A DNA stretch of 64,000 bases, from positions 859,612 through 923,611 of the forward strand of contig NZ_JARVCO010000002.1 in assembly GCF_034531395.1 (NCBI RefSeq), written 5' to 3'. Origin of the DNA: Pontiella agarivorans. Lineage in GTDB: Bacteria; Verrucomicrobiota; Kiritimatiellia; Kiritimatiellales; Pontiellaceae. Under the pieces are notes generated by a model, which had not been told where the DNA came from, did not search any database, and was given only the letters and a program-made list of their open reading frames with translations. Made by a program: the position numbers and the translations under genes. Below are positions 1,275-59,700 of the stretch, piece after piece; the stretch's first letter is position 1; the number at the start of each line of letters is the position of its first letter.

Positions 1275-1291
1275 TTTCCAAGGGTTGGAAA
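1275..1291. repeat. Dispersed TTTCCA-N5-TGGAAA palindrome (intergenic copy)
   Basis: TTTCCAAGGGTTGGAAA, perfect seven-base arms around GGG, lies in the phoH leader. It is the most symmetrical copy of a motif found at least 14 times in this window (see findings for the other positions). It has no run of T after it, so it is not a simple terminator. Confidence 0.75.
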
Positions 1292-1357
1292 GGAGATGAA
1301 ACTGATGCCCTTGACCCCTAATCCTTCCAATTCCAACCCCGAAAGGCCTCAGGAAAT

Positions 1358-2686
1358 ATGATCACCCCTAAGGAGAAAATCTTCGTTCTTGATACTAATG
1401 TAATCCTTCATGACAGCAGCTGCATCCACCAGTTTGGCGAGCATGATATTGTCATCCCCATAACGGTGCTCGAAGAGCTCGACCACTTTAAAAAAGGGAA
1501 TGATTCACTGAACTTTCACGCCCGCGAGTTTACCCGTACCCTCGACTCATTGGCGGAAGATAAACTGTTCAACGGCGGCGTATCCATCGGCACGGGCCGT
1601 GGGAAAATCAGCATTAAACTCGATCGCGAGTTCGATCAGGATATTGCGGCCAACTTTTCCGATACCAAAAAACCGGATCACCGGATTCTGAACAGCGGCT
1701 ATGCGGTGGCTAAAGACCATCCGGATAAACTCGTTACACTGGTAACCAAAGACGTTAATTTGCGAATGAAGGCTAAAGCGGTCGGTCTTCTTGCCGCCGA
1801 CTATAAAAACGACCATGTTTCTGACATTCAGCGACTTTACACAGGGACCCGTATTGAAGAGCAGGTGGAACCGGAGCTGATCAACCTGATGTATACCCCT
1901 CCGTATGAATTTCCTTCCGATCGGCTGAACGTGGATCATCCGCTGACTCCAAATGAATACCTGATTTTACGCGGCGAACGGAAATCGGCCCTGGCGGTAT
2001 ATGACGACGAACTTCGCCTCATCAAACATGTGGATAAAGTTCCGGCCTTTGGAATTACACCGCGGAATTCCGAGCAGACCTATGCCCTCGACGCCATCCT
2101 GAACGATAACGTCCGCCTCGTTACGCTCACCGGAAAAGCCGGAACGGGAAAAACGCTGATTGCACTCGCAGGGGCACTGAAACGGAAAAAAAGTTACCGT
2201 CAGATTCTGATGGCCCGCCCTATTGTTGCACTCAGTAATAAAGACATTGGCTTTCTCCCGGGGGATATCCAATCCAAACTCGACCCCTACATGAAACCGC
2301 TGTTTGATAATCTTGCCGTCATTGAACATGCACAGGGCGATACTAAAAAAAGTCAGGTGAGTAAGCTGATGGATGATAAAAAACTGATCATTGAGCCGCT
2401 CTCCTATATTCGCGGTCGAAGTCTCGTCAATACGTTTTTTATTATCGATGAAGCCCAGAATTTAACACCGCATGAAATTAAAACCATTATCACCCGCGCG
2501 GGCGAGGGAACGAAAATTGTATTTACCGGTGATATTTTTCAGATTGATCACCCCTACCTCGACAGTCATTCAAACGGCCTGAGTTATTTGATCGAAAAAA
2601 TGACCGGTCAGCGATTGTATGCACACGTTAACCTGACCAAAGGAGAGCGCTCAGAGCTGGCGGATCTTGCCGGCTCGCTGCTTTGA
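1358..2686 (+). CDS. PhoH-family ATPase with N-terminal PIN domain
   Basis: This 442-residue protein has two domains. The N-terminal PIN-type ribonuclease domain (about residues 6-150) starts FVLDTNVILHD with acidic residues in the expected places. The C-terminal PhoH domain is a P-loop ATPase/helicase module with Walker A GKAGTGKT near residue 258 and Walker B FIIDEAQN near residue 361. The PhoH2/YlaK class couples RNA unwinding with RNase activity in the families studied. Length and order match that class. The start is supported by AGGAAAT just upstream. It is convergent with the DUF721 gene, the two stop codons lying side by side (TGA 2684-2686 and the complement at 2687-2689) without room for a terminator. 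Confidence 0.93.
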   Translation: MITPKEKIFVLDTNVILHDSSCIHQFGEHDIVIPITVLEELDHFKKGNDSLNFHAREFTRTLDSLAEDKLFNGGVSIGTGRGKISIKLDREFDQDIAANFSDTKKPDHRILNSGYAVAKDHPDKLVTLVTKDVNLRMKAKAVGLLAADYKNDHVSDIQRLYTGTRIEEQVEPELINLMYTPPYEFPSDRLNVDHPLTPNEYLILRGERKSALAVYDDELRLIKHVDKVPAFGITPRNSEQTYALDAILNDNVRLVTLTGKAGTGKTLIALAGALKRKKSYRQILMARPIVALSNKDIGFLPGDIQSKLDPYMKPLFDNLAVIEHAQGDTKKSQVSKLMDDKKLIIEPLSYIRGRSLVNTFFIIDEAQNLTPHEIKTIITRAGEGTKIVFTGDIFQIDHPYLDSHSNGLSYLIEKMTGQRLYAHVNLTKGERSELADLAGSLL

Positions 2687-3989: not shown

Positions 3990-4005
3990 TTTTTTTATTC
4001 CCCAT

Positions 4006-10210: not shown

Positions 10211-11629
10211 ATGAATAAATTAGCTGTAGCTGTCATTCATTATCACCTGCGTCCCGGCGGCGTGACGCGGGTGATTGAACGTGCCGTTGAATCACTGAAC
10301 GACCGAATCGACTTTTTTTGTATCAGCGGAGAGGCCACGTCCGAAGATGCGCAACTGTTTCCCATCTCCGGAACCTTCCAGCCATTGGAATATTCCAACG
10401 CCGCCGATTTTCCAACGCCGGAAAAATCAGTTAAGGAACTCCGGCAGCTGGCCCGGAATCATTTCGGGCGTGATCCGGACATCTGGCATATCCACAATCA
10501 CGCACTGGGAAAAAACGGTTTTATGCCGCAACTCGTCTGGACGCTGGCCGGCGCCGGATGCCGCCTGCTGCTGCAGCCGCACGACTTTGCCGAAGACGGC
10601 CGGGCCGCAAACTATAAACTGCTCACCGAAGCTCTCGGCGAAAACCTGAACCAGATACTCTATCCCGATGCCGAGCATATTGTCTATGCTCCGATTAATT
10701 TCCGGGATAAATCCTTCCTTGAAAACATCGGACTTTCCAACGTCCGGGAACTGCCGAATTCAGTCACCGCACACGAAGCGTCCCCCCTCGGAAAAACCAC
10801 CCGCACCATTGTCTATCCCGCCCGGGCCATCCGCCGGAAAAATCTCGGCGAATTCCTGCTGTGGAGCCTGCTCGCACCCGAAGGTTATCTGTTCCAGAGC
10901 ACCCTCGCCCCGCAGAATCCCAAGTGGCAGGTTTACTATGATGAATGGGTCAAGTTTGCCGAAGAGCTTAATCTTCCGGTTGAATTCGATGCGGGTCGCA
11001 AACACGATTTTTCAGAACTCGTCCATAATGCCGACGCATTAATGACGACCAGTATTCAGGAAGGCTTCGGCCTCGCCTTCCTCGAACCCTGGCTGGAAGG
11101 TAAAAATCTGATCGGCCGCAGGCTTCCGGAAATCACCACTGACTTTGAAACTGAAGGCCTCAATCTTTCCGGACTGTACGAGTCCCTGCCCGTACCGCTG
11201 GCATGGGCCGGCGAAACAACATTTTTCCAGACCCTGGAAAAAGCGATGCGCGAAATGTACACCGCCTATTCCAAACCCTGGAACCCGGCGATACTCGCCG
11301 AAGCCGAATCCGCGCTCGTCAAAAACGGAACCGTTGATTTTGGTATTCTCGATGAAGCGCTGCAGCGGAATGTTATCCGTCATCTGGCGGCGCATCCCGA
11401 AGACCGAAAACAACTCCCCCCGCTTCCCCTGACCCCTGCTGCCGGAGTGATTGAGATCAACCGCAGCATTGCCGAATCCCATTACAGCCAGGCCGCCTAT
11501 GCCAACCGGTTGCTCGAACTATATCAGGATCTCGCGGCGGCTGAACCCGGCGATATAACTTCCGGCCATGCCCCCGCCCTGCTCGACCAGTTCCTGAAAC
11601 CCGAACGCTTCAACCTGCTCAGAACGTAG
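10211..11629 (+). CDS. GT4-like glycosyltransferase
   Basis: A 472-residue protein. The N-terminus LAVAVIHYHLRPGGVTRVIERA and the segment DIWHIHNHALGKN are typical of GT-B enzymes. The donor half has IVYPARAIRRKNLGEFLLW and ALMTTSIQEGFGLAFLEPWLEGK, with the E-x7-E-like acidic pair. The C-terminal 100 residues are an extension rich in helices, without a domain I recognise. The start was placed at the ATG at 10211; the TTG six bases upstream is less likely. It is the last gene of the plus-strand unit after the peptidase and the GpgS-like gene. Acceptor unknown; the locus suggests solute or polysaccharide glycosylation. Confidence 0.75.
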   Translation: MNKLAVAVIHYHLRPGGVTRVIERAVESLNDRIDFFCISGEATSEDAQLFPISGTFQPLEYSNAADFPTPEKSVKELRQLARNHFGRDPDIWHIHNHALGKNGFMPQLVWTLAGAGCRLLLQPHDFAEDGRAANYKLLTEALGENLNQILYPDAEHIVYAPINFRDKSFLENIGLSNVRELPNSVTAHEASPLGKTTRTIVYPARAIRRKNLGEFLLWSLLAPEGYLFQSTLAPQNPKWQVYYDEWVKFAEELNLPVEFDAGRKHDFSELVHNADALMTTSIQEGFGLAFLEPWLEGKNLIGRRLPEITTDFETEGLNLSGLYESLPVPLAWAGETTFFQTLEKAMREMYTAYSKPWNPAILAEAESALVKNGTVDFGILDEALQRNVIRHLAAHPEDRKQLPPLPLTPAAGVIEINRSIAESHYSQAAYANRLLELYQDLAAAEPGDITSGHAPALLDQFLKPERFNLLRT

Positions 11630-14827: not shown

Positions 14828-15810
14828 TCGTTTCGGTCATCATGCCTGTCTGGAATGCAGTGAACACTATTTCCAAAACGCTGGAATCCCTTCGTGCCCA
14901 GACCTTCGAATCCATGGAAATTGTGGTTGTGGATGACGGCTCAACCGACGGAACCACCGAGCTCCTGCGCGATCAAAACGGTATTATACTGCTCGAAAGG
15001 CCTCATCGCGGCATCGTGCCTGCACTCAACGACGGCCTGGCCGCGGCGACCGGAAGCTACATTGCCCGAATGGATGCCGATGATTTGTGCCGCCCGGAAC
15101 GCATCGAAAAGCAGGTGAACTATCTTGAAAAACATCCGGAGATCGGATTGGCGGGCTGCCGCGTCGAGTTCGGCGGAGACCGGAAACTGCAGGCCGGCTA
15201 TGCCGCCTACGTGGACTGGATTAATTCGCTGACTGAACCGGAGGATATTGCGCTCAACCGGTTTGTGGAATCTCCGTTCGCCCATCCTTCCGTTATGTTC
15301 CGCCGCGAACTGCTTTCGGCATTCGGAGCTTATCGCGACGGTCCGTTTCCGGAGGATTATGAACTCTGGCTCCGCTGGATGGACGCCGGGGTGAACATGG
15401 GCAAAGTGAATGAGGAGCTCATCACCTGGAACGATCCGCCATCGCGCCTGTCACGCACGGATCAACGTTACTCCGTGGACGCATTTTATAAAACCAAGGC
15501 CGAATACCTTTTCCAATGGCTGGAAAAAAATAATCCCCACCATCCCGATGTCATGATCTGGGGCGCCGGCCGGGTTACCCGCAAACGGGCTGCAATCCTT
15601 AAAGCATGCGGCCTTCGCATTACACATTACATTGATATTAAATCCAGACGCCTCAACTGCGACACCCCCGTCATACGTCCGGAAGAAATTCCTGATCCTG
15701 ATTCCTGTATGCTTCTTTCCATGGTTGGTAACCGCGGTGCCCGAAAGCAGATTTATGATTATCTGACAGAATGCGGATTTGTAGTCGGAGAAAGCATGCT
15801 CTTTTGTTGA
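14824..15810 (+). CDS. GT2 glycosyltransferase with C-terminal nucleotide-binding-like domain
   Basis: A 328-residue protein. Residues 1-230 are a GT-A family 2 transferase: VSVIMPVWNAVNTISKTLESL, VVDDGSTDGTTELL, and the metal motif YIARMDADDLCRPERIEKQV, then FPEDYELWLRWMDAG. Residues about 235-328 (DVMIWGAGRVTRKRAAILKACG then THYIDIKSRR) form a glycine-rich Rossmann-like unit with a GAG-type loop, as found fused to some GT2 proteins. It probably decorates a surface polysaccharide or glycan. Start is coupled to the STAS-like gene. A strong inverted repeat downstream may end transcription. Confidence 0.82.
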   Translation: MIVSVIMPVWNAVNTISKTLESLRAQTFESMEIVVVDDGSTDGTTELLRDQNGIILLERPHRGIVPALNDGLAAATGSYIARMDADDLCRPERIEKQVNYLEKHPEIGLAGCRVEFGGDRKLQAGYAAYVDWINSLTEPEDIALNRFVESPFAHPSVMFRRELLSAFGAYRDGPFPEDYELWLRWMDAGVNMGKVNEELITWNDPPSRLSRTDQRYSVDAFYKTKAEYLFQWLEKNNPHHPDVMIWGAGRVTRKRAAILKACGLRITHYIDIKSRRLNCDTPVIRPEEIPDPDSCMLLSMVGNRGARKQIYDYLTECGFVVGESMLFC

Positions 15811-18429: not shown

Positions 18430-21400
18430 ATGGCCATACGCGTAGCACTGAACCACAAGACCCAATACTTTTACGATCGTCCGGCCACGTTGGGAGCCCA
18501 GATTATCCGGCTCCGACCGACTCCGCACTGCCGTACCCCGATCGTCAGCTACTCTTTGAACATTCAGCCGGAAGACCATTTCATCAACTGGCAGCAGGAT
18601 CCGCAGAATAACTATCTCGCCCGTCTGCTGATCAATGAAGCGACCGAACGTTTCGAAATCGAGGTCGATCTCGTCGCCGAGCTTAAGCCGATCAATCCGT
18701 TCGATTTTTTTCTGGAAAAAGATGCCGAGGAATATCCGTTTGAATATCCGGCCGCCCTGAAGCGCGAACTGCGCCCCTTTTTCCAGAAGCAGCGGATGCG
18801 CCCCCTTTTTCAGGAATTCGTCGAAGCGATCGACACCTCGGAAATCCGGACCATCGATTTTCTGGCCATGGTCAACCGGAAAGTCAACGAACGGCTCGAA
18901 TACACCCTTCGTATGGATCCCGGCATTTACACGCCGGAGCGGACCCTGAAAGAAGGTAAAGGCAGCTGTCGCGATTTTGCCTGGCTGCTGGTTCACATTT
19001 TCCGACGGCTCGGACTCGCCTCCCGGTTTGTATCCGGGTATTCGATTCAATTGGCAGCCGATGAAAAACCGGTTGATCCCAATGCGCCGGCAGGCGTCAA
19101 TCAGGACATCTGCGATCTGCATGCCTGGTGCGAGGTCTATCTGCCCGGCGCCGGCTGGGTCGGGCTCGACCCCACCAGCGGTCTGTTCTGCGGCGAAGGA
19201 CATATCCCGCTTACCGCCTCGGCCGATGCGCGCCACGCTTCCCCGGTTGAGGGAGCCATCAGCATGTGCGAAACCACCTTCAACGTAGAAATGTCGGTTA
19301 CGCGTATTCACGAAGACCCGCGCGTCACCAAGCCCTACACCGAAGGGCAATGGCAATCGATTCTGGATCTCGGCAACAAGGTGGATGAAAAGCTGAACGC
19401 CGGCGACGTCCGGTTGAGTATGGGCGGCGAACCCACCTTTATTTCCGCGACCGATCTAGAAGGTGAAGAATGGAATACCGAAGCGGTGGGCCCCACGAAA
19501 AAGCCGCTGTCGGAAGAACTGATCCGGCGGTTGCGCAAACGCTTCGGCCCCGGCGGCATGCTGCACTTCGGCCAGGGTAAATGGTATCCGGGAGAACCGC
19601 TGCCCCGCTGGGCCCTTGGTCTCTACTGGCGCAAAGACGGTGTTCCCATGTGGGAACACGAAGAACTGCTGGGAACCGAAGAAACCGATTACGGCTTCAC
19701 CCATAAAGATGCGCAGGAACTCGCCGAGGAACTGACCCGGCAGCTCGGCGTGGACCGGAAATATATCCACCCGGCTTATGAAGATCCGGTGAAATATGCA
19801 CTGCGCGAACGGGAACTGCCCGTCAATGTCGATCCGCTGGACAGCAAACTGGATGATCCGCAGGAACGCGAACAGCTGCTGCGCGTGTTTAACCGCGGCC
19901 TGAATAATCCGGTCGGATTTGTCCTGCCGCTGGAAAAACAACCCTGGGGCTGGCAGAGCGGTCTCTGGATGCTGCGCGGCAAACAGCTTTATCTCATTCC
20001 CGGCGATTCCCCGCTCGGACTGCGCCTTCCGCTCGAAAGCCTGCCGTGGGCCAAACAAGAGGATCTCGACCCGACGCTGCCGCCCGATCCCTCCTGGCGG
20101 CAGCCGCCGCTGCCCGGCCGCCGTTCCCTTGTGGTGCCTCAACATCCGGAGGATGAACGGGAACTTCCGGACCTTGGAAAAAATTCTGTGGAGGAAATGG
20201 CGGATGAACCGCCCCCGCGCCATGATGTGCTGCCCGAACCCGGCCAGTCGGCCGACTGGGTACTGCGCACCGCCATGTGTGTCGAGGCGCGTGACGGACG
20301 GCTCTATATCTTCATGCCGCCGACCTATACCATCGAGGATTATCTTGATCTGCTGAACGCCGTCGAACACGCGGCGGCCATCGTGGACAAACCGGTTCTG
20401 ATCGAGGGCTACACCCCGCCGCACGATCCGCGCATCGACTATATGAAGGTTACGCCCGACCCCGGCGTCATTGAAGTCAATATCCAGCCGGCCTACTCCT
20501 GGCGCGAAATGGTGCAGAACACCACCGTGCTCTATGAAGAGGCCCGCCAGACCCTGGTGCGGACGGATAAATTCCAGCTCGACGGAAAACATACCGGCAC
20601 CGGCGGCGGTAACCACGTCGTTGTAGGCGGCGCAACGCCGGCCGATTCCCCCTTTCTGCGCCGGCCGGATGTGCTGAAGTCGCTGATCGGCTTCTGGATG
20701 AACCATCCGTCGCTCAGTTATCTGTTCAGCGGACTTTTCATCGGCCCCACCTCGCAGGCACCGCGTGTCGACGAAGGCCGCCCCGATGCCGCCTATGAAA
20801 TGGAGCTGGCATTTAAACAGATTCCGAAAATGGGCGATCCCAACATTCCGCCATGGTTGATTGACCGCGTGCTGCGGCATCTGCTCACGGACTTGACCGG
20901 CAACACGCACCGTGCCGAATTCTGCATCGATAAACTTTACTCCCCCGACAGTCCGACCGGGCGGCTTGGGCTGGTGGAATTTCGCGGCTTCGAAATGCCG
21001 CCGCACGCCCGCATGAGTCTGACACAGCAGTTACTGATCCGTGCGTTGATTGCCCATTTCTGGGAATCGCCCTACGAGGCGCCGCTGACCCGATGGCTCA
21101 CCCATCTGCACGACCGTTTCCTGCTGCCGCACTTTGTCCGCGAGGATTTCGGAAAAGTCATCGACACCCTGAATCAGGCCGGTTTCCCCTTCCAGCAGGA
21201 CTGGTTTACCACTCATTTTGAATTCCGTTTTCCAGTCATTGGAACGGTTGATTATGACGGCGTGCATATCGAATTGCGGCAGGCTATCGAACCGTGGCTG
21301 GTGCTTGGAGAAGAAGCCGGCGGCGGCGGAACCGCCCGCTATGTCGACTCTTCGCTGGAACGAATGCAGATTAAGGTTTCCGGACTGATCGAACAGCGCC

Positions 21401-21771: not shown

Positions 21772-21783
21772 GGCTAAGCGTTA

Positions 21784-24306
21784 ATGGACAATTTAATAAG
21801 TAATTACCATCCCCTCACCGAAACCTATTCGGAGATGGCCGATCCCGAAGGCGGTTTGCGCCCACACTGGTCCCCCATGATCAATCGCCTGAATGCGTAC
21901 GGCGCGGAAAATATTTCCAAACGCTGGAACCGGGCGCGACGGGTGATCCAGCAGAACGGGGTCACCTATAACGTAGCCGAAAGTGAAAACGGCATCAGCC
22001 GCCCCTGGGAACTCGACCCGGTTCCGCTGATGATTTCCCCGGATGAATGGGAAGTCATTTCCGCCGGCCTGGTACAGCGCATGCAACTGCTGAACCGGGT
22101 ACTTGCCGATCTTTATGGAGAACAGAAACTGCTGAAAAACGGAACCCTGCCCAGCGAACTGATTCTGGCAAACAGGGCCTTTCTCCGCTCCTGCTGCCCC
22201 ATTAAGCCGCCGCAGAATCAGTTCCTAACCATGCTGGCCGTTGATCTCGCCCGGGCACCAAACGGCGAATGGCGCGTGGTAAAGGACCTGACTCAGGCTC
22301 CGTCAGGTGCCGGTTATGCACTGGAAAACCGCATCATCATTTCACGCACCTTTCCAACCATGTACCGTGAATGCCGAATTGAGCGGCTGGCCGGATTTTT
22401 TTCCACGCTTCGGAACCGGCTGGCGGAACTCTCTCCGCGAAAAGTCGAAAACCCGCGCATCGTCATTCTTACACCGGGTATGATGAGCGAGTCCTATTTC
22501 GAACACGCCTACCTTTCCCGCTATCTCGGTTTTCCGCTGGTGCAGGGCAATGATCTGACCGTACGCGAAAACCAGGTCTTTTTAAAAACACTGGGCGGAT
22601 TGCGTCAGGTTGATGTGATTCTGCGGCGACAGAATGACTCCGACTGCGATCCCCTGGAACTGAACCAGGCATCCGGGCTCGGCATTCCGGGCCTCGTTCA
22701 GGCCGCCGTTTCGGGCGAAGTGGTCATTACCAATGCCCTGGGCAGCGGACTGGCCGAAACTCCGGCTCTGCTCCCCTTCTATCCCATGCTCTGCCGTCAT
22801 CTGCTCAACGAAGAACCCCGGCTCTGGACCGTACCGACATGGTGGTGCGGACAGAACCTGGAAATGAATCAGGTCATCGATAATCTGGATGATTTTGTCA
22901 TCAAACGCTCGTTCAGCGGCTCCCATGAACATCCGATTTTTCCGCGCCACCTGCTCCCCGAAGCGCGTGAAAAACTGATCGGCCGAATCAAGGATGATCC
23001 CAAACGGTTTATCGCTCAGGAAAACACCTCGCTTTCCGCCGCCCCCTGCTGGCGCGATGGACACCTGACTCCCCGCCACTCGATGCTTCGCGCCTTTATC
23101 GTTGCCACACGCACCGGCTGGAAAGTCATGCCCGGCGGACTTACACGCATTTCCTCAAAAAGCGATTCCACCGTTGTCAGTATGGAACGGGGCGGCGGAT
23201 CGAAAGACACCTGGATACCGGCGCGCGGTCAGGTTGAAAAAATAACCCTGCTTCCGAAGTCCGGAAACGAGATGGAACTTTCACGCGGCGAGGACAACCT
23301 TTCAAGCCGGGTGGCTGACAACCTGTTCTGGCTGGGCCGTTATATCCAGCGCGCAGAACTGCAGACCCGTACGCTGCGTACCGTACTGCGCCGCATGACG
23401 GAGGAAACGCTGCCGGACGGAACCCCCGAACTCCCGGAGCTGATCCGGACGCTTGGCGTACTCACTGATCTTTCACGGAAAAACACCCCGATCAAAAATC
23501 CGATTGTTGAAATGGACCGGACCCGCGCGTTTCTCGACTCGGTCATTTTCGCCCGCAATCAACCGAATAATCTATATGCCGCACTCAACAACGCCGGAAA
23601 AATCGGGGCCATGGTACGCGACCGGATGAGTATGGATGCCTGGCGAATTCTCGACCGGCTTGCCCGGGAACTGCAGGCCGCAACCGGCGAAGACGAATTA
23701 ACCGACATTGCCGATATGCTGGACAATCTCCTCGTCCCGCTTTCCGCATTCTCCGGAATGGGATTTGAAAGCATGACCCATGGATATGCCTGGCGTTTCA
23801 TGGACATGGGCTTCCGGCTCGAACGGGCTGTAATGAGCGCCATGCTGCTTAAAGAGCTGCTTACTTCGCCCGACCCCTATGAAGCACCGATGCTCGATGC
23901 CATTCTTGAAATCGGCAGCAGCTCTATCACTTATCGCACGCGTTATCAAAGTAATGCAGCGGTTCTTCCGCTTCTTGATCTGCTCGTTTCCGATCCATCC
24001 AATCCGCGCAGTATTGCGTTCCAGCTGGAATTGTTAAACGAACACATCCGCGAACTCTCCAATCTTCCGAGGCTTGGACAACTGACGGAACAGATTCAGA
24101 GTGAAGAGCTGGTTCGCTTTGTGGAGGATTTCGATCTTTCCATGATCACGGCGTTTGATGCTGAAGGCAACCGCCCGAGATTGGCGGAATATCTGGAGCG
24201 TATCATCGATAAAGTACAGGAACTCAGCATTCTGATTAATGAGCGTTATCTATCCCATGTGCAGTCCACCAGCAAACTCTCCACGCTGGTAGGAGGTGGA
24301 TCATGA
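21784..24306 (+). CDS. ATP-grasp/alpha-E fusion protein
   Basis: An 840-residue fusion. Residues about 1-490 are a second circularly permuted ATP-grasp unit (VTYNVAESENGISRPWELDPVPLMIS, KDLTQAPSGAGYALENRII, ILTPGMMSESYFEHAYLSRYLG, LDDFVIKRSFSG, GGGSKDTW). Residues about 500-835 are an alpha-E unit (SRVADNLFWLGRYIQRAELQTRTLRTVLRRM, then MTHGYAWRFMDMGFRLERAVMSAM). It duplicates in one chain what the first two genes encode separately, which argues that the ligase and the helical protein work as a complex. It is 12 bp after the transglutaminase gene; its TGA overlaps the next ATG (ATGA). Confidence 0.92.
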   Translation: MDNLISNYHPLTETYSEMADPEGGLRPHWSPMINRLNAYGAENISKRWNRARRVIQQNGVTYNVAESENGISRPWELDPVPLMISPDEWEVISAGLVQRMQLLNRVLADLYGEQKLLKNGTLPSELILANRAFLRSCCPIKPPQNQFLTMLAVDLARAPNGEWRVVKDLTQAPSGAGYALENRIIISRTFPTMYRECRIERLAGFFSTLRNRLAELSPRKVENPRIVILTPGMMSESYFEHAYLSRYLGFPLVQGNDLTVRENQVFLKTLGGLRQVDVILRRQNDSDCDPLELNQASGLGIPGLVQAAVSGEVVITNALGSGLAETPALLPFYPMLCRHLLNEEPRLWTVPTWWCGQNLEMNQVIDNLDDFVIKRSFSGSHEHPIFPRHLLPEAREKLIGRIKDDPKRFIAQENTSLSAAPCWRDGHLTPRHSMLRAFIVATRTGWKVMPGGLTRISSKSDSTVVSMERGGGSKDTWIPARGQVEKITLLPKSGNEMELSRGEDNLSSRVADNLFWLGRYIQRAELQTRTLRTVLRRMTEETLPDGTPELPELIRTLGVLTDLSRKNTPIKNPIVEMDRTRAFLDSVIFARNQPNNLYAALNNAGKIGAMVRDRMSMDAWRILDRLARELQAATGEDELTDIADMLDNLLVPLSAFSGMGFESMTHGYAWRFMDMGFRLERAVMSAMLLKELLTSPDPYEAPMLDAILEIGSSSITYRTRYQSNAAVLPLLDLLVSDPSNPRSIAFQLELLNEHIRELSNLPRLGQLTEQIQSEELVRFVEDFDLSMITAFDAEGNRPRLAEYLERIIDKVQELSILINERYLSHVQSTSKLSTLVGGGS

Positions 24307-34100: not shown

Positions 34101-35040
34101 AAACGGGGACAACATTGTTAAAGTTCATACCTCGATTTCGGAAGAGCATCGCAGCAACGTCTATTTAAGCGGCGCGGAAACGGCTTTTGCCAAATGGAGC
34201 CTCCCGCCGGGGAAAAAATGGCCCGGTGCCGAACTGCCGGAATTTATCACCACGGATGACAGCGGAAAAACACGGGGTTATCCCGCCCTGACAGCCGAAG
34301 CCGGGGGCGTCGGCCGCGCCGTATTCATGAATCCCGCCCTGGCAAGACATGCCCATTTGGCCGGACTTGCGCAGTTGTTTCGGATCAACCATAAAGATCA
34401 GGTCAAATATGTTGAGAAACGGCCGCCGCTCACCACCAATCTGCAGCTGACTCTCTCCGCGATCGACAGCGACTTTCTCACCGATTTGATGAATGCCTCA
34501 ATTGTCGATGCGCTGACCGATGATCTGCGCCACGAAATACGGGATCCGGCCGCCTTTGAAAAACGGGCGGCGATTGCCCGCAGCGACGTATTTGAAAAAT
34601 TTGAAGAAAACGCCCGAATTCTGGAAAACCTGCTCAATCAGCGGGAAACGGTACTGAAAGCCATTGCTGAGCTTCGGGCTGATTTTGATATTCTGCACGA
34701 TCTCGAGATGCAGCTTGAATTCCTGTTTCGTCCCGGATTTATCCAAACCCTGGAACTGTTCAGCCGCTACCCGCGCTATCTCAAAGCAATGCAGATACGG
34801 ATTCAGCGGGCACGGAATAATTCCGATGCGGATGCCCGGAAGCTGCTTGAAATTGAGCCTTTCCAGAATCGGCTGAATGACAAACTGCTCGCCTGCGAAA
34901 ATATTGGGGGGGCGATCGACCTGATCGAGTTTGCCATGCTGCTCGAAGAATTCCGGGTGAACCGGTTTGCCCCGGAAATTAAAACCCCTGTAAAGGTTTC
35001 TGCACAACGGCTTGAGGAGGCGTGGGCGAACCTGCTATAA
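31132..35040 (+). CDS. hrpA: ATP-dependent RNA helicase HrpA
   Basis: A 1302-residue DEAH/RHA helicase, about the length of E. coli HrpA. Walker A CGTTGSGKTTQLPKIV near residue 110, DEAH box CLIIDEAHERSLNIDFILGYL near 205, motif III SSATLDADSF, motif VI QRRGRCGRV, then the HA2/OB-fold region and the HrpA-specific C-terminal DUF3418 region (RLEEAWANLL at the very end). HrpA acts on stalled or colliding ribosomes and mRNA in other bacteria. An in-frame repeat-like insert sits at about residues 607-632 (see repeat entry). The first in-frame ATG (31132) has no clear ribosome site; the ATGs at 31153 or 31159 are alternatives. Confidence 0.93.
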   Translation: MPLFPARMNMPETKEMLQTVKRSLDDVLLRDRSNLNALMRRIRQRIHDHKPADNLIGKLKDAHVQALERAQKRARVQLKLDYPEILPVSGKKEAIRQLIEENQIVIVCGTTGSGKTTQLPKIVYEAGCGRTGRIGVTQPRRLAATGMARRVAEEMGADYGRGVGCQVRFDDQTCDETIIKFMTDGILLAETQHDRHLLQYDCLIIDEAHERSLNIDFILGYLKNLLKVRPDLKIVISSATLDADSFSSFFDQAPVIEVEGRTYPVEDFFLPPGKDEELSNHILRAMRWISDVDDRGDVLIFLPGEREIRDATKKLEGQHFKNTEVLPLFGRLSMGEQQRVFKVGGRRRIILATNVAETSITIPGIHYVIDSGLVRLSRYNPRTQVQGLQIEQVSQASARQRRGRCGRVTDGICVYLYDEEVLENSAAYTDPEIRRTSLAGVILQMDMLNLPPIDQFPLIDPPQTALVNEGYKTLYDIGAIDQDRKLTPVGKQIARFPLDPHLARMILQAKEEGALPEVLILVAFLSIQDVRERPTEKADAADQAHAKWKDPKSDFITILNLWNDVEYARRESHGKLRKFCKTNFVNYRRVMEWRNLWHDLRDSAKDLFPPQRHRSKESNKKPKAPNRRSAEINNPDYDLIHRSLLAGLPANIGLKGEDREFTAARNRKFFIFPGSGLFKKPPDWVMTFSLVETTKLYARMVSEIEPKWVAEIAPHLCKEIYKQPEWNPDKGFVYAKESILSGGLTLTHGKPVHFGPIHPEKAREIFIKEGMVPGNLKTRGGWLKLHQRMLDDIQALEEKIRRPGALLDTDAIFNHFDRLLPADVYSVQTLEQWIRKTKARIAMNAEDAMFPQTAPIRMEDFPEFLTFHHEDFHLIYTFEPGDELDGISLVCPTDKLAFLPDWGPDWLVPGWLEEKVNRLLRNLPKNLRTTLAPIDRTAHTFVHTCASVRNQPLLSALSQWLQHEFKLPVDASDFDEESLPGFLRMKVIETNGDNIVKVHTSISEEHRSNVYLSGAETAFAKWSLPPGKKWPGAELPEFITTDDSGKTRGYPALTAEAGGVGRAVFMNPALARHAHLAGLAQLFRINHKDQVKYVEKRPPLTTNLQLTLSAIDSDFLTDLMNASIVDALTDDLRHEIRDPAAFEKRAAIARSDVFEKFEENARILENLLNQRETVLKAIAELRADFDILHDLEMQLEFLFRPGFIQTLELFSRYPRYLKAMQIRIQRARNNSDADARKLLEIEPFQNRLNDKLLACENIGGAIDLIEFAMLLEEFRVNRFAPEIKTPVKVSAQRLEEAWANLL
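32950..33027 (+). repeat. In-frame dispersed-repeat-like insertion inside hrpA
   Basis: This stretch reads CGCCACAGCGACACAGAAGC, then an A-rich linker, then AAAGCGCCGAACCGCCGAAG CGCCGAGA. Both halves have the wording of short intergenic repeats (CGCCACAG-GACACAG and GCGCCGAA-CGCCGAA). It encodes a basic, low-complexity segment (PPQRHRSKESNKKPKAPNRR) placed between the ratchet region and the KLDYDLIHRSLL-like restart NPDYDLIHRSLLAGLP, where other HrpA proteins have a variable loop. The frame stays open. Confidence 0.5.
33958..33975. repeat. 18-bp perfect palindrome within hrpA
   Basis: CACACTTGCGCAAGTGTG is fully self-complementary and encodes HTCASV. No second copy was noticed in the window. 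Confidence 0.5.
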
Positions 35041-36769: not shown

Positions 36770-37375
36770 TTAAACCCTGTTTTTCTTACGGAAGGAACAC
36801 CGTCCGATTTTTTTATAAGAAAAAATCAGCTCAAAATCGGTCGTCTCATCCGCATCCGGCACAAACGCTTCAATTTCTTCAAAACGCTCATCGGCTTTCA
36901 GCAACGCATAAATCTCATCAAAATACGGCAAATGATCCGAGGAAACATGCAGCCCCCCTCCGCTTTCCAATGTCCGGAATAATGCATTCATAAAGGCCGG
37001 ATTAAACAGCCGGTTATCATGATGACGATCCTTCGGCCACGGGTCCGGAAAGAAAAAATAATAATTTGCAACATAGTCGGAAGGCATCAGGTAGTTGATC
37101 GCATAATAGCCCTCCATGCGGAACACGCGGCAGTTCTCCCGCCCCGCCCGTTCGCAACGCCGGCCACTGCTGTTGATCCGCCCAAGCTGGCGCTCAATAC
37201 CCAGGAAATTGATATCCGGGTATTTGCCCGACCGCGCCGCCAGAAAACGGCCCTTTCCGGAGCCGATATCCACTTCCAACGGATTTCCAGGGGTTGGAAA
37301 TTCCGCTTTAAAATCGATCGGGTCCAGCCAGTTATCGCACATCACCCGCAATACAGTCTTCTTTTTCTTGCTCAT
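36770..37375 (-). CDS. trmB: tRNA (guanine-N7-)-methyltransferase (TrmB)
   Basis: A 201-residue SAM-dependent methyltransferase making m7G46 in tRNA. LEVDIGSGKGRFLAARSGKYPDINFLGIERQ is the SAM loop, NYYFFFPDPWPKDRHHDNRLFNPAFM is the TrmB signature (PDPWPK-x-H), and ETTDFEL closes the family region. The ATG at 37373-37375 was chosen over upstream non-ATG starts because the basic SKKKK tail is typical. A copy of the dispersed palindrome sits inside (37284-37300). Confidence 0.92.
   Translation of the reverse strand: MSKKKKTVLRVMCDNWLDPIDFKAEFPTPGNPLEVDIGSGKGRFLAARSGKYPDINFLGIERQLGRINSSGRRCERAGRENCRVFRMEGYYAINYLMPSDYVANYYFFFPDPWPKDRHHDNRLFNPAFMNALFRTLESGGGLHVSSDHLPYFDEIYALLKADERFEEIEAFVPDADETTDFELIFSYKKIGRCSFRKKNRV
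37284..37300. repeat. Dispersed palindrome, trmB copy
   Basis: TTTCCAGGGGTTGGAAA inside trmB; one of the perfect-arm copies of the TTTCCA-N5-TGGAAA family, here in coding DNA. Confidence 0.7.
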
Positions 37376-42498: not shown

Positions 42499-43044
42499 CT
42501 TATTCCCCTCCTCTTACTCAGCCCGCTCCGAACACAGTCGGATGTAACTTTCCGAAGCGGTTAAATGATCGCCCCATGTTACAGCTCTCATAAAACACGA
42601 ATACTGTACAAAAGCACGATTAAAAAATCACATTCGGCATTTTTTCAAAAGGGGCGGGCTTTCTTTTCTTTGTAAGACATAAAGGGCACTCATCGGGATT
42701 CTATTCATATTGAGCCTGAGCTCCCAACACACTGACTTTTACTCTGGATAGATGCATCTCTTTATTTTTCAGTGACAATTTCACTGAAAACCGGTTCCTT
42801 GCCCTGCTATATCCCCGCGGTTTCCATTAACCGCTCCCTCTTTCACTCCACTCCGTACGGCAGGATTTGTTGCGGTCATTTCCATAGGTTGGAAATTCAG
42901 AACGAACCGATGAGCATCGTGTTCTTCATCATTTTATCCTTAAGCTGTTCCAAACTGCCTGAATTCAGGCCGGCTCACCGGAGGTATCAGAAGGTTTTAG
43001 GTCAATGAATTGATGCCGCGTGTGCAGGTGCGTCAATTTATACG
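42499..43044. other. 546-bp gap between agarase and TonB-like gene
   Basis: No convincing gene. It holds the palindrome TTTCCATAGGTTGGAAA (42879-42895) and, on the minus strand, TTGAAA (42647 region) with TTTAAT 18 bases further as a weak promoter candidate for the TonB-like gene. A frame of 78 codons (42772-43008, plus) is without family features. Confidence 0.45.
42879..42895. repeat. Dispersed palindrome, intergenic copy upstream of TonB-like gene
   Basis: TTTCCATAGGTTGGAAA, six-base arms, 384 bp before the TonB-like start. No T tract follows. Confidence 0.7.
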
Positions 43045-47209: not shown

Positions 47210-48748
47210 TCAATACGCCCGGCGTTCCGCCGGCACACTGCGGGATTCCGCTTTATACAGTTCCAACAGCGCCTTCATCTGCTGTACCCGCTCCGGATGT
47301 TCGGCATAAACATTTTTCCGCTGCCAAGGATCAACAGAGAGGTCATACAGCTCGCCCGGCTGGTTATGCGGAAGGTATCCGCGCTCTTTCTTATACCAAT
47401 CCGGCTCATTGTCCCGGTCATTGCCATCCGGCGCATCAATGAAAACCCAATTTCCCACACGGATCGCAAATTCACCTTTCAGGCTGTGATGCACGGTTCC
47501 TGCACGCAGCGGTTTCCTGCGTTCCAATCCCTGGAAAATCGGCAGCAGACTGACGCCGTCTTCCGCCGCATTCTCCGGCAGCCTGAAATCAGCGATCTCC
47601 GCAAACGTCGGCATAAAGTCGGTCAGACAGACGGTTTCATTTGAAACCCGCCCCGGCGCAATGACGGCCGGCCACTGCACCAGTGTGGGCACATGATGTC
47701 CGCCTTCCCAGAGGTCACGTTTGACTCCCCGGAACGCCGCACTTGAATTATGTCCCGTTTTTCTGAACTGCTCATACGCATGATTCTCGACCCCGTTATC
47801 AGAAGAAAAAACAACGATCGTATTTTCATAGAAACCTTTATCCTTCAGCGCCTGCATGATTTGTCCGACATGATGATCAATCTGCATGCAGAAATCGCCG
47901 TAAGCACCGATTCCGCTCTTCCCCTGCCACGCTTTTGCCGGAACCACCGGATTGTGCGGTCCGGTTATCGGGAAATAGACAAAAAAGGGCGTAGTCCCAT
48001 CCTGCTGCCGAATATAATTAAGCAGCCTGTCTGTCAGTTCCGGAATAACCTGTTCGGCTTCAAAATCCACGGTCGCCGGGCCCGGACGATGGAAGGCTTT
48101 GATGGCGGTGGGGGTTCCCGTAAAACGATCATTTTCTATGTAGACATAGGGCGGCATATCCAGCGATCCATTGATTCCGAAGAAATAATCAAACCCATTA
48201 CTCGTCGGTGACCGCTCGATTTTTCCGGACCAATCCACATTGGTTTTCATTTCGCCGTCATCAGTAAATCGCTTCCCGTTACGATACGTCATCGTGCCGC
48301 CGCCTTTTTGCCCCGCCTTCTTGCCATCCGTTGTCGGGAAGTTCATACCCAGATGCCATTTCCCGATGCATGCGGTATTGTATCCCCGCGCCTTCAGAAC
48401 CGACGCCATCGTTTCCCGCCCATCTTCAATCAGAGCCGGGCTGTAGCCGCCGAGCACCCCCCGTTTCATTTTAGAACGCCAGCAATACCGACCGGTCAGC
48501 ACCGAATACCGACTGGGCGTACAGACTCCGGATGACGTATGTGCATCCGTTAACATCAGCCCGTGATCCGCCATGGCATCCAGATTCGGCGTTTTAAACT
48601 TGGCCTCCGGATTCATGCACGACACATCGCCGTATCCCATATCATCCGCCAGAATAAAAATAATATTCGGCCGCGCTCCGGCTGCCGCCACATGACACAA
48701 GCCTGCGATCACAATACCGAGGCCATACTTTTTCAGATAGTTACTCAT
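47210..48748 (-). CDS. Formylglycine-dependent sulfatase 1 (exported)
   Basis: A 512-residue sulfatase with an N-terminal signal (GLGIVIAGLCHVAAAGA). PNIIFILADDMGYGDVSC gives the metal ligands, GVCTPSRYSVLTGRY is the intact C-x-P-x-R modification motif (Cys76), GKWHLGM and FVYFPITGPHNPV follow, with SSDNGVE. It hydrolyses sulfate esters, probably on algal galactan oligosaccharides. The first ATG compatible with a signal peptide is 48746-48748. It is 67 bp upstream of the GH86 gene. Confidence 0.9.
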   Translation of the reverse strand: MSNYLKKYGLGIVIAGLCHVAAAGARPNIIFILADDMGYGDVSCMNPEAKFKTPNLDAMADHGLMLTDAHTSSGVCTPSRYSVLTGRYCWRSKMKRGVLGGYSPALIEDGRETMASVLKARGYNTACIGKWHLGMNFPTTDGKKAGQKGGGTMTYRNGKRFTDDGEMKTNVDWSGKIERSPTSNGFDYFFGINGSLDMPPYVYIENDRFTGTPTAIKAFHRPGPATVDFEAEQVIPELTDRLLNYIRQQDGTTPFFVYFPITGPHNPVVPAKAWQGKSGIGAYGDFCMQIDHHVGQIMQALKDKGFYENTIVVFSSDNGVENHAYEQFRKTGHNSSAAFRGVKRDLWEGGHHVPTLVQWPAVIAPGRVSNETVCLTDFMPTFAEIADFRLPENAAEDGVSLLPIFQGLERRKPLRAGTVHHSLKGEFAIRVGNWVFIDAPDGNDRDNEPDWYKKERGYLPHNQPGELYDLSVDPWQRKNVYAEHPERVQQMKALLELYKAESRSVPAERRAY

Positions 48749-51849: not shown

Positions 51850-54800
51850 TTATTCAACCACTGACTCTTTCTCTCTTAACCTAATCCGATAGAACCGGGT
51901 TTCATAGGCGGGAACATTGGTATCCACAAACGTGAAAAAATCCGTATTCATCACGGTTTCCACGGTGTTCCAACCATTGGAAGCCAGATCCTCCGACGCC
52001 TGAATATCATTTTCAAAATCGGCAGAAGTTAAGACATCAAAGGCATAAAATCCTTCGGCAGTCAGGCCCATGTTGGTAATCGCAACCGGCAGCGGCAGAT
52101 CCACCCGAATGTTCACGGCATAATTTATGTGCGATAGCGTAAAGGTCAGCTCGGTCCCGTTCCACACCTTGGAAAGCAGGGCCGAAGCGGGCTCAACAGT
52201 CAGCATTGGCTCAGATGCTGAATCACAGAGCAAAGTAAGTGTTGTGGGTTCATTCGTAACAGACGTGTTTGCATGAAGAATCAGGGAGTGCCCTAAATTG
52301 GCCCGGCGTCCCAGAATATGCTTAAAGGGCCGAATGGTTCCTGAAAGGCGGGTTATCGTCCCGCCCTCCATGTTAATAGAAAAATCCTGCGTAACATCCT
52401 GATTCTCCTTGCTGTTCATGATGGAAAATTTATCGCCCACCAAATTTACCCACGCATCGCCCGTGTAACGCAGCGGGTAATACGCATTGAACAATGCCGT
52501 CACCTCCACTGCATTCGTAAGTGAGGCCACATCAACCACCACAAGGTCAGTCGTGTTTGAAAGAGTCTGCACCGGATCCGGCAGAATCGGAATAAACGGA
52601 TACCGTCCGGTCTGCGGAATGATGTCCCACATCTCTCCGCCCATATGATCATCGGGAGCAGAATCTTCAACCCCGAACGTTCCTTTATACAGCGCATCAT
52701 ACTTCCGATACGTAACAGGGCTGGGTACCCCGTTCATGGGTTCATCATTCGGTCCGGGACGTACTGCAATTTTCAACTCGCCAAGAACCTCTTCCTTCGT
52801 CGGAATAAGCGCGCCCGAACTTAGCGCCCGAATGAACGGGATAATGATGTTATCCAAAACCGGCGTCTTTTGTCCTTTCCGATCCCACAGGGCCGTGAAG
52901 GGCTCCGAAGAATCCGGATCGTATTCATTCATCGTCGTATTTCCCTGCCCGCTGATAAAGTAAACAGAAGCCCCCTGCGCCGTCCCTAACATCAGCATAT
53001 TATTCCAGAAACTCGGCGGCATGTATTTGAAATCGCCTTCATCATATCCAAGCGGCGGATCAAACGGCTGATTGAATCCCACATCGCGCCAGAACCACGA
53101 TTCCGCCCAATAGCCCAGATGATCAAACAAACCGGCCAACCAGGCCCCCTGTGTGGCGCCGGACATCTGATAAGCATCCCACGTAATATTACTTTTAGGT
53201 GCAAAGACCAGCCACGCCTTATGTTCCCGCAGAAAATCAGGATCCATCCAGGTTTGGTCATGAGTCCCCCGTCCAAACCGTTCATCCTTCGCAAAATAAC
53301 GATCCCAACGCCAGGATGCCATCCAGTTGCCATCGGCCATCATGTAATATTTTCCATATTTGGCGCAGAGCTGAATAACCCGGTTCATATACCGGATGAT
53401 TTCTGCAGCATTCTCCTTCCATTGAACCTTGCTGTAGACCCAGAAACTTTCTCCGATAATTATCCCCTGAACATTCGGCACATGCTGAAACACCCATTCC
53501 AGTTCTGTCAGCGGTTCCCAGCTTTGGAACGGATTCGGACCGGCTGCCATGATCATGAAATTCATCCCCGATTCTTTTACGCGGCCATAGGCCTCCAGCC
53601 AGGTTTCATGATCGAACGCTTTCCCCCGATTAAATGAAATACAGGTATACGGTTTGATGTCCGCCGGTATATGTCCCCAGTAATCAGCCCAGTAATTTTC
53701 AGTCAGCTCCGCATCCGTTGCCCAAACCTCCAGAGAAAAAAGTGGATTCTCCGGCGAAATCGCCCGCTCGGGCAGGCGTTTACTGTGATCTTCATTCAGC
53801 ACGACACTCCGCACTGCGGACCATGGACCGTGCGCAACGTTATTGGTGTCAAAAGGGCGGACCCGCCAATAATATTCATCCGCCGGCAGCACTGTTTCCG
53901 GCAGATATCCCACCTGCTGATAGTCATTCCAGAAAGCCTTCCCATCTGCCTGCGGATCATCACCGGGAAGGGCAAAAACAAGCTCATCAATCAGTAGCGT
54001 TGAAAAGCCGGCATCGGAACTGACCTGCAGATGATAAGCATCCTCTCCTGACAACCGCCACCAACGGAATGATAAAGCAATATCGGTCACCTCCATGGCA
54101 TCAAGCGGTGAAATTAATTCGATCTGATCACTCTCCCAGGTTATTTCATTTAAAATAAAATTTTCCACCTCTGCTGAATTTTCGTCCCCTGATTCAACAT
54201 AAAATCCGCCGCCGGTAACGGCCGATAAATCAGGTGAAATGCTTACAAGCGATGCCGGATCGGCAATGGCGGTTTTTACGCGGGAGACTCCGTTCGAAGA
54301 CGTATTCATATAGGCTTCAGCCGAAGCATCCACCCGCAACCAGCTTAGGTCTGCAACGTTAATCGAATGTATTCCCGAAGAAACCGACGTTGTGGTCGCT
54401 GAAAGAAACCACTGGCCGGCATCATCCCGAACCAGCCAGCGTAAGGATTGCCCGGACGCGGCGCGCTGCACATTCACACGAATACGCGATAAGCTGATCG
54501 CTGCATCCGGAACCGTTCCCCCTGACGCATCAAAAAGCGTATACGCATAAGTTCCCCGATAATTGGCTGAACTCGTTGCGTCGTCCCCGCCACTGCCGAC
54601 GGCATAAAGTTCCATTCGGTGATTATTACCCGAAATTAAAATACTGCCCTGCCACGCACTGACCGATGCATGCGTATAGCCCCCCCAAATAAACCCCGAT
54701 CCCTCGGATGGCGCGGCCATGCGTGAAGCCGTTTCAATTTGATCATCGCAAACCGTAACCTTGGTCGATTCCGGTGTAACGAAGGCTTCATTCAATGAGA

Positions 54801-56465: not shown

Positions 56466-56731
56466 AATTCCCTTATTGATCATCGTTTCATTCTAAAACC
56501 GGCACGATCTCATACCTCTGCCAAATGCCAGCTAAAGAATAGAAATATAGCGAAAGAGCACGCTCGACAACCTATCAAATGATAGACGGCACACTGTCGG
56601 GTTTAACGGAAGCCATATAGTGCAAGACGTCGACTTTTCCTGCGGGGAGGCTATAAAAAAGCTCCTCCGGAATACCGGAGAAGCTTACCAACAACACATG
56701 GGTTTCGCGCCAGATTATCTGGCTCAATACC
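56466..56731. promoter_or_regulatory. Intergenic region with fucosidase promoter and operator
   Basis: On the minus strand it reads operator CTATCATTTGATAG (56585-56572), GTTGTCG, then CTATATT about 16 bases on as a -10 candidate. Right of the operator, the gap up to the end of the giant gene has no other clear signal. Confidence 0.5.
56572..56585 (-). promoter_or_regulatory. Shared operator, fucosidase copy
   Basis: CTATCAAATGATAG on plus; CTATCATTTGATAG on minus. It is preceded on plus by GACAAC, as in the sulfatase copy (GACAACCTATCA). It lies 107-120 bp upstream of the GH29 ATG. Confidence 0.65.
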
Positions 56732-59700
56732 TCATTCCGCCTCCAGCTGCTCAACCAACAGTCGGATGAATTTATTGCTTCCAACCATTGGAAACGTATT
56801 CGTGACCGATTCAAACCCGTTTATTTCTTCTCCAACGGAAACCGAATAACCGGTGTTGACCCAATTCGTAGACAGCATGCTGTCGCTCACCTCAAGATGG
56901 TAAAGGATTCCGCTGTCCGGATCAGCGAGGCGAACATATACATACTTAAACGCATTGCTGCCCCCCTGATTGTCCACCAGGTGCACCGGAGCAGTTCCTG
57001 CATCCCCGGCGTCCGCCGGATTTCCTCCGAAGGCATATTCATGAAGATTTACAATGCCGTCCGAATCATCATCATCCAGCACCCCGCCGGAAAGGCCATG
57101 CTCTTCCGCGAATTTTTCAAATCCGGTTTTTTCAACAATGCTTCCGCCAACCGGGCCGATTTCAAATTTCAGATTATCAAAGTAAACATATTCCGATACC
57201 GCCGTACCGTTCTGATCGAACCCAATGAACGGCCTGCAGCTGGTTGGAATTCCAACTGAAACAGGAAATGTTCCACTGTATTCAATATGGTGAACTCCGG
57301 CAGACAACACCGCAAATGCCGCATCCGCGGTATCATTGATATTGTTCCAGCGGAACTGAACATCCCCGACAGCTTTTGCTAAATCCGCAGGAATATAAAT
57401 ATCGAAGGACAGTGTATACTCATCGCCGGCCTGAATATTGTAGGATGACAGATCAACCGGATTAGCGGATGGCCGTATGGCGGAATAAGCATTATCCGCA
57501 GTGCTTATCACGAATACATTCCCGGAGGCCGTGCTGAATCCGGCAGGAGCAGCCACCACCTCACCACTTAAGGTATTCGCGGTCTGCACCGCTGTGCCGG
57601 CCAGCGTCTGATTATTGCCGGAAGTGGTTCCTGCCGCAATGGTATCGAAATCCTCTTCCCACAACACAGTCTGTTCCAGCGGCGGAGGGCCATCCAGCAC
57701 GACAACCGTTAATTCAGCAGCATCCGTTTCTCCTGCGGGATCTTCAACATGAACACTGAAAGTATTGGTCCCGATATCGGATTCTCCCGGAGTTCCGGAA
57801 AGCGTTCCATCGGCTGCAACTCCCAACCATGCTGGCCCGCTGGTTTTTGAAAAAACCAGAGCATCACCATTCGGATCGGATGCATGATCCGCAAGTGTTC
57901 CAACGTAGGAATATCCCTGCTGCACCGAACCGCCATTGATCGGATCGGATGCAAATTCAGGTGCCACATTCGGTGCCCAGATTTTAAAATCAAGATTATC
58001 CATATAGACATAGTCAGCAAGCTCGGCTCCATCCTGATGAAACCAGATGAAAGGTTGAACACTGGTGGGATTGAAGTCGCTTCCGCCGGTATTTACCGGA
58101 AAGGTTCCGGTGTATTCGATATGATGAACCCCGGCACTTAACGTGGCAAAATCAGAAACCGTCGGCCCGTTGCCTGTATTCGAATCATCTTTCCAGCGAA
58201 AGTTTACCCCGCCGACAGATACTGCCAGATTGGTTGGGATATAAATATCAAACGAAATTGAATAGTGATCGCCATCCCGGAAATAATACGAACTCAGATC
58301 AATTGCAATGGGTGCTCGAATAGCGGAATATTTATTAGCACCCGTTGAAAGAAGAACCACATTCCCCGATGCACTGGTAAAGGCGGCCGGCGCTTCCACC
58401 ACTTTGGCAGAAAGAGTGTTCGCGGCTTCAACCACCGTTCCCGCCAGACTTGAACTGCCAGTGGTGGCGCCCTCGAAATCTTCTTTCAAAAGCGAGGTCG
58501 TCGGAATAATCGGCGGCTCGTTCTCTACAATAACCGAAACCTCATCAATTACGATATTCGCTTCATCGTCCATGGCGGTAAGACGGAAAACATAGGTTCC
58601 TTCAATAAGATTTGAAGCGCTCAGCGTTACCGTGTTTGTGCCCGATAATATGGCCGTATTTGGTCCCGAAACCTGCACCCATTCTGTGGATACCACAGCG
58701 CTGTCATCCGAAGCAGCACCTTGAATCACAGCAGATACCGGAGGAAAATATAGTGCCAGATCTGGACCTGCAGAAACGGAAAGGCCTGTACCCGTTCCAT
58801 TGGCAGCCAAACTGAGCGTGCGCCAGCGCCCCCGTGCCCAGGCAAACCCATCGCCCTCAGCAACAAGACCATTGGAATCCGTTTTGGACTGCACCGCAAT
58901 CGTATCTCCCTCCGAAACAAGAATGTTCCGGAAACTGTGATTCTGTTCCTCATAATCGACCGTAGCGGGGCTGTTGGTGGCCGTCCCTTTTACCACACCA
59001 TTCACGAGAAACTGATAGACACATTCGCCATCAAGTTCCTGCAACGCGGTAATGGTGACATCATAAACACCTGTAGAACCACTGAAGGTGGTCTCTGCGC
59101 GGGCAAACTTATCGCGGTTGCTTACCGTTGCGGCATTAATGGCCAGCGCATTATTTCCATTATCTTTATAGTAATTCACTTCTCCGGCAGTAATTACCGG
59201 AAAATCGTTTACTGCCTCATAAACGTAAGATTCCGTCGAAATACGCTCCGATTCCGGTGCATTCTGAGCCGTCGTACCGTTTGCGGAGCTGTGATACAGA
59301 ATAAACCGGTCGATGGCATGCCCCTTGGATCGGCCCGCAATTTTGATCTCATGGATTCCGGGTTCATAGTGAACTTTCGGATTCGTTACAAATACGCCAT
59401 GAACCGGTTCAAAATTAGTCCCCCACGACCACGCGGTCTGACTTTGCACCCAGACCTTGGTGAATTTGGTCATCGTCTGAGTACTGCCATCGTTCGCCGT
59501 CATCTGCAACGGAGTCCCCGTCTCAAACTTTACGTACGTATCATTCCCCTGATCGCCTGCACTGACTGCGTCGTATTGTTTGGAGCGCCAGCGGAAGGTG
59601 TAGTCCCCGGCCGTCTTAATTTCGAATTGGAAGGTTGAAATACCGTTCGCCAGCGCATCGTCTAATGTCGTACTGAATTTTTGAGCGCCGTTCCATTCGA

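Follow-up and report, generated by a model that had tools for sequence, protein, structure and literature searches.

The window analyzed here is a stretch of 64,000 nucleotides of contig NZ_JARVCO010000002.1 from the genome of Pontiella agarivorans (4,436,865 bases, 12 contigs), referred to as the home genome (G000), and the element in question is a gapped palindrome of 15 base pairs (bp), TTCCA-N5-TGGAA, scattered through it. In its refined form, TTCCA-RNSNY-TGGAA (R, purine; Y, pyrimidine; S, G or C), the palindrome is probably the binding site of a predicted nucleoid organizer, a protein that would bind DNA as a dimer, cooperatively, and on one face of the helix. Cooperative dimers on one face are favored because the palindrome is odd in length, its center is symmetric, neighboring sites in relatives are whole helical turns apart, and the linkers between them are unrelated in two lineages. 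A nucleoid-architectural role is the likeliest because the sites are too many, too widespread, and too little affected by gene orientation to form an ordinary regulon. Genomes compared are given G-numbers and sequence stretches compared are given L-numbers.

The exact word was found 15 times in the window, against a mean of 0.16 and a maximum of 2 in 100 dinucleotide shuffles, and 1,146 times in the home genome, where the reversed control (the main word read backwards, AAGGT-N5-ACCTT) was found 5 times. All 14 exact window copies listed in an earlier note on this DNA were present, and a 15th (52160-52174) had been overlooked. The word was refined on 370 kilobases (kb) of own sequence containing 89 sites. 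The gap of 5 was exact, with 89 copies against 0-3 for each other gap from 0 to 11, and the TT/AA ends were required, CCA-N5-TGG with foreign flanks being far less enriched. As these flanks are needed, the PflMI-like core CCA-N5-TGG was rejected as a methylase target. Copies with one mismatch numbered 21 in the window, compared with 1-7 for every one of the seven control gaps examined. Among the 21, five lie in hrpA, comprising the four already named (31321, 33508, 33610, and 34741) and one more at 31388. HrpA relatives in Pontiellaceae B12219 and Kiritimatiellales OB10 are consistent with the placement of this DNA in Pontiella.

Of the 15 window copies, 13 had a purine at the first spacer position and all 15 had a pyrimidine at the last, so that the purine/pyrimidine bias claimed previously was borne out; a spacer without it, the outcome named there as contrary, was not found. 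Among the 89 own sites, 75 had both the purine first and the pyrimidine last, and 82 had G or C as the center base, a feature that had been missed. The outer spacer pair was Watson-Crick complementary in only 32 of the 89 sites, from which it follows that protein-DNA symmetry is kept rather than hairpin pairing. The kept feature is the purine/pyrimidine and G/C pattern, symmetric between both strands. The inner spacer was mostly complementary too in some relatives (G104: 25/28).

In relatives, the sites were found in arrays, mostly between genes, with intervals of two, three, or four turns of the helix. Adjacent spacings of up to 160 bp were pooled from nine sampled relatives; a tenth, G079, yielded none, and G289 was excluded (19 kb stretches, no site). 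The stretches of G001, G017, and G037 sampled first were tiny and had no site in them. The pool comprised 70 spacings: 34 of 31 bp, 24 of 32 bp, three of 30 or 33 bp, six of 21 or 22 bp, and three of 62 or 64 bp. Same-face spacings of two or three turns (21-22 or 30-33 bp) accounted for 67 of the 70, and, for a 10.5 bp period, they gave with the rest of the pool a resultant of 0.93 and a phase of -0.02 bp. The array pattern was seen in 22 of 26 genomes and 18 of 19 genera (reversed control, 0/26), and the four genomes without it (G004, G019, G015, and G097) hold 20-41 sites. In G032, a single-contig genome of the same order, single and paired sites occurred in genes and gaps, and adjacent spacings up to 110 bp were 22, 30-32, 42, 43, 53, 63, 73, 74, 83, 84, and 86 bp. 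Here, 28 distances of 15-110 bp were observed versus 4.8 expected at random, and they were strongly phased (R 0.898, Rayleigh p about 1.5e-10, distances taken as independent). Linker sequences in G032 and G048 were no more alike than shuffled linkers; tandem copying therefore does not explain the spacing in these two genomes.

The 89 own sites were divided, with our own open reading frame caller, into 63 in predicted genes (frames 27, 18, and 18) and 26 in gaps, a density of 0.19 sites per kb of gene and 0.69 per kb of gap. Forty shuffles of the coding DNA that preserved protein and codon use gave a mean of 7.3 and a highest count of 12 against the 63 sites observed; the shuffle-level frequency for which the earlier note had proposed this check was not seen. 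Tandem, divergent, and convergent gaps all held sites, with no preference common to lineages: the home genome leaned convergent (2.9 sites per kb of gap vs 0.7-0.8 in the other gap types) and G048 leaned divergent (7.8 vs 2.8-3.5). The genic share was 0/34 in G048, 5/28 in G104, and 57/97 in G032. The statement that copies lie in genes and gaps alike held for the window by the same caller, with 13 of the 15 copies genic and two (1276 and 42880) in gaps. The exact copies, followed by the one-mismatch copies in hrpA, are listed below (no strand assigned).

1276..1290: exact palindrome TTCCA-AGGGT-TGGAA, intergenic
10376..10390: exact palindrome in a glycosyltransferase-like gene; 8/10 arm bases same in sister genome G025
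11225..11239: exact palindrome in the same glycosyltransferase-like gene as site 10376; G025 has a site here too
11269..11283: exact palindrome in the same glycosyltransferase-like gene as site 10376, 44 bp from site 11225
15511..15525: exact palindrome in a family 2 glycosyltransferase gene
21230..21244: exact palindrome in the DUF2126/transglutaminase gene; site also in G025 and G009, not in G020
21915..21929: exact palindrome in the CP_ATPgrasp gene; site also in G025 and, with altered center, in G020; not in G009
30299..30313: exact palindrome in a sulfatase gene
37285..37299: exact palindrome in a methyltransferase gene (PF02390); no such site in G025, L031, or L032
38792..38806: exact palindrome in a sodium:solute symporter gene
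42880..42894: exact palindrome, intergenic
47522..47536: exact palindrome in a sulfatase gene
51968..51982: exact palindrome in a GH98-like gene
52160..52174: exact palindrome, the 15th, in the same GH98-like gene as site 51968
56779..56793: exact palindrome in a gene of 1345 codons
31321..31335: hrpA copy with one mismatch; L031 (Pontiellaceae B12219) has an exact site where this position aligns
31388..31402, 33508..33522, 33610..33624, and 34741..34755: four more hrpA copies, each with one mismatch

Comparison with related genomes, also proposed in the earlier note, showed that the excess recurs. A sweep of 345 genomes of the class gave counts from 0 to 3,209 (reversed control, at most 12), and 87 of them, in 13 families, had 40 or more copies (tallied by eye). 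The 238 genomes of the phylum outside the class had 30 copies or fewer, high copy number being confined to one class within the phylum sample. Counts in the home genus ranged from 5 to 2,297, and the four lowest (5-7) were found in genomes of 1.1-1.3 Mb (G011, G016, G020, and G023), in which the palindrome system seems to have been lost. G020, despite its few palindromes, has 90% protein identity to the window in the DUF2126 protein. Another class of the phylum is represented by G386 (2.4 Mb), which has 55 copies of AAGGT-N5-ACCTT and 0 of the main word, and which may carry a different iterated gapped palindrome.

If the nucleoid reading is correct, one dimer would be seated on each palindrome, and dimers placed whole turns apart would face the same side and touch, so that the DNA would be bent, looped, or wrapped. 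That a same-face cooperative mechanism of this kind exists is known from the Lrp/AsnC family, whose sites are described, in the available part of PMC2995911, as inverted repeats of 13-17 bp bound cooperatively with one-face spacing of two or three helical turns. Sites would be made by point mutation, through selection on many weakly useful sites or through drive. Pontiella would use mostly single sites within genes, and most other sampled families mainly intergenic arrays.

Evolution of the sites was followed in the sister genome G025 (84.6% DNA identity over the aligned part). Nine of the 15 window sites aligned with it, all without gaps, and the other six lay in unaligned DNA. All ten arm bases were kept in three of the nine, and the others differed by 1-3 arm substitutions; conversely, three of four aligned G025 sites were common to the home genome. 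The site at 37285, missing in G025, L031, and L032, was for this reason probably gained by substitution in the home lineage. Neutral simulation gave 14-25 new sites per genome; if the 6/9 fraction held genome-wide, the lineage-specific sites would roughly number several hundred, a figure in which home gains are mixed with G025 losses.

Several results weigh against a cooperative nucleoid organizer. The home genome contained only 10 array-type pairs, and its phasing was weak: 12 distances of 15-110 bp gave p of about 0.04 in a partly biased sample, and seven distances of 110-210 bp were out of phase (phase 3.74 bp). G001, of the home genus, showed no phasing (7 distances, p about 0.45). The geometry is therefore above all a property of relatives, and Pontiella sites are mostly single. 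Over the initial 428 kb of contig C2 of the home genome, the spacing of 100 sites fitted an exponential, as a random process would give (Kolmogorov-Smirnov p 0.54). Site conservation relative to G025 was near neutral, at 3/9 compared with 0.22 expected for any ten positions; such low conservation per site points to weak selection spread over many sites, or to drive, and away from strong selection at every single one. Linkers in G104, G082, G087, and G057 were somewhat more alike than shuffled ones, and part of the phasing in these genomes may stem from copying. Linker pairs above 0.8 identity numbered 0/55 in G104, 2/21 in each of G082 and G087, and 6/78 in G057 (0.2 in G057 shuffles). In G057 (L056-L058 and further arrays), linkers recurred between arrays at different loci, and so the arrays there also seem to spread by copying.

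The candidate binders tried add to these points. No MatP (PF06303) was found in 48 genomes, with a positive E. coli control. All 24 panel genomes that reach 40 sites carried a protein with PF01037 (Lrp), and so did 22/28 motif-poor ones; the six lacking it were motif-poor, and 46 of 52 genomes had one or two copies. The Lrp recognition helix, compared by eye, was not conserved among motif-rich lineages and resembled that of motif-poor ones, and exact sites were found in nine of 50 fetched lrp loci, with close pairs or arrays in three. On these three grounds the resident Lrp was rejected. HARE-HTH, considered since one G054 array adjoins such a gene, was rejected as well: it was detected in 15/62 genomes, including 6/29 with at least 40 sites, and was missing from 23/29 motif-rich panel genomes and from the home genome. 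The home genome had one PF02195 match, that is, a single ParB, so a Noc-like ParB paralogue was likewise rejected; PF02195 was single in 29/36 genomes overall, and the seven with an extra match were motif-rich (G082, G087, and G289) or motif-poor (G051, G278, G307, and G055). A search of 20 genomes for Fis-like HTH_8 gave long frames only, with no short frame, in G048 and G104, and one frame of 135 amino acids in the home genome, and lent no support to a small Fis as the binder. The genes flanking the rare arrays in G054 and G050 had no gene in common.

The earlier note had offered a nucleoid-organizing or segregation site, with matS as its comparison. Whole-turn spacing, the symmetric center, and the presence of sites in genes and all kinds of gaps favor a symmetric site for a nucleoid-type protein. 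The matS/segregation version is unsupported, since MatP was absent from the 48 genomes and no significant origin/terminus gradient was found in G032. The expected trend along the chromosome did not appear in this single-contig relative: counts ranged from 0 to 10 per 20 kb, sites were present in 18 of 21 stretches of 20 kb on both arms, and neither skew switch gave a significant trend over these stretches (Spearman p 0.21 and 0.23). With matS/MatP of the E. coli Ter macrodomain the word shares an odd-length palindrome with an R-N-Y center, repeated in chromosomal DNA; matS, however, is 13 bp long with 23 repeats within Ter (according to the available part of PMC3116907), in contrast to 1,146 copies in the home genome, and the G032 sites are not confined to the terminus. 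SlmA and Noc also have specific sites scattered over the chromosome, those of SlmA lying mainly in coding DNA (same part of PMC3116907). SlmA, however, has about 50 sites and none in Ter, whereas the Pontiella word has about twenty times more and occupies both arms of G032; unlike SlmA/Noc sites, the word is phased in arrays in relatives.

An unlikely alternative is that the word serves a global transcription regulator in the style of Lrp, CRP, or Fis as its operator, so that the majority of copies would control genes close by and not chromosome shape. A known geometry is on its side: the Lrp/AsnC sites described above resemble the word in inverted-repeat size, same-face spacing, and cooperative binding, which for the Pontiella word is predicted. 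The occurrence of PF01037 in every motif-rich panel genome, its lack in motif-poor ones only, and a gap density 3.6 times the coding density in the home genome also agree with it. However, the sites lie in convergent gaps and deep in genes in thousands of copies, Lrp sites are degenerate with an AT-rich center (available part of PMC2995911) as opposed to exact arms with a G/C center here, the resident Lrp lacks a matching recognition helix, its gene is common in motif-poor genomes and seldom accompanied by sites, and G048 and G104 have no stand-alone Fis. Less likely still is a DNA-uptake or recombination-bias sequence spread by molecular drive in natural transformation. The creation of sites inside genes by substitution, an apparent gain far above the neutral simulation, and the fast turnover within one genus are in line with it, but helical phasing, dyad symmetry with a G/C center, and intergenic arrays are not what it predicts.

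Two further explanations appear very improbable. One is a word like HIP1, linked to an orphan DNA methyltransferase and mismatch repair. HIP1 is, in the available part of PMC4390886, a palindrome of very high copy number that is tied to methyltransferases in cyanobacteria and low in some related genomes, and repair may give rise to the surplus of such words as a side effect. The Pontiella word has the same very high copy number and scarcity in some relatives, and a large excess over composition in both genes and gaps. HIP1, however, is GCGATCGC with GATC/CGATCG methyltransferases, and the word studied here is gapped, 15 bp long, and helically phased in arrays in relatives; a methylation target needs no such phasing, and the core shows much weaker enrichment when it lacks the TT/AA flanks. 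The other, with equally little probability, is a mobile palindromic repeat or an RNA hairpin or terminator. The arms are able to pair in RNA, and the similar linkers of G057, G082, and G087 show that copying occurs in those genomes. Yet the mobile repeat put forward as a possibility in the earlier note does not fit the home genome: the insertion of a unit at empty sites, expected of a repetitive extragenic palindrome or other mobile palindrome, was not found at any of the nine alignable window sites, which differ from the sister by substitutions only. Linkers are unrelated in G032 and G048, spacer ends are not kept complementary at home, and sites occupy every reading frame as well as gaps of all three orientations.

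Arrays of the palindrome were also found in some viral sequences. A 31/32 bp array was present in nine stretches on eight IMG/VR contigs, and the 21/22 bp pattern added one further contig. Terminase genes were identified on four of the eight array contigs (L228, L229, L231/L233, which are one contig, and L236): the first three have the large subunit, and L236 has a small-subunit-like gene directly before the array. Portal proteins were identified on L228, L233, and L234. The arrays of L228 and L229 lie in a long stretch without predicted genes, ahead of the terminase gene, where the two align poorly with each other; those of L232 and L235 are inside a very long gene. On the terminase contigs, the phased arrays are located as follows.

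L228, 3034-3164: phased array, packaging-gene side
L229, 2786-2946: phased array, packaging-gene side
L233, 650-767: phased array, packaging-gene side
L236, 10589-10634: phased array, packaging-gene side

These sequences suggest that phages may use or mimic the host palindrome system, the hosts being assigned from the motif alone. The phage arrays may be an operator, a mark of the packaging region, or a mimic of the host chromosome.

Among the other contents of the window, positions 18430-24306 hold the DUF2126/transglutaminase gene and, after it, a gene for a circularly permuted ATP-grasp protein that includes an alpha-E domain. The DUF2126 protein was full or nearly full length in 10 of 28 genus genomes, home included; the locus-by-locus comparison in genus genomes leaves out G005, G017, G014, G001, and G004. 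Two sulfatases and the GH98-like protein (29063-31018, 47210-48814, and 51850-54855) fit a polysaccharide degrader. The literature searched, which covered neither preprints nor most subscription papers, contained no report of the word or of palindromes or repeats of this kind in the class, and the available parts of two Pontiella description papers mention no palindrome.

Nucleoid proteins are best known from a few model bacteria, and many of them bind loosely. In the genomes described here, hundreds to thousands of exact sites are marked, and their geometry in relatives states how neighboring proteins must face. The large differences in copy number within one genus amount to a natural experiment on the gain and loss of a binding-site network. 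Because the class has cultured members and the type strain that the window belongs to, NLcol2, is itself in culture, a single pull-down could identify the protein and open chromosome folding in this group to direct testing. More speculatively, much of the class may encode a chromosome-packaging code, in which a dedicated protein on hundreds to thousands of palindromes placed at whole-turn intervals would wrap or loop the DNA in three-turn steps; point mutation would create such a code even in genes, some small genomes would have lost it, and phages would copy or borrow it.

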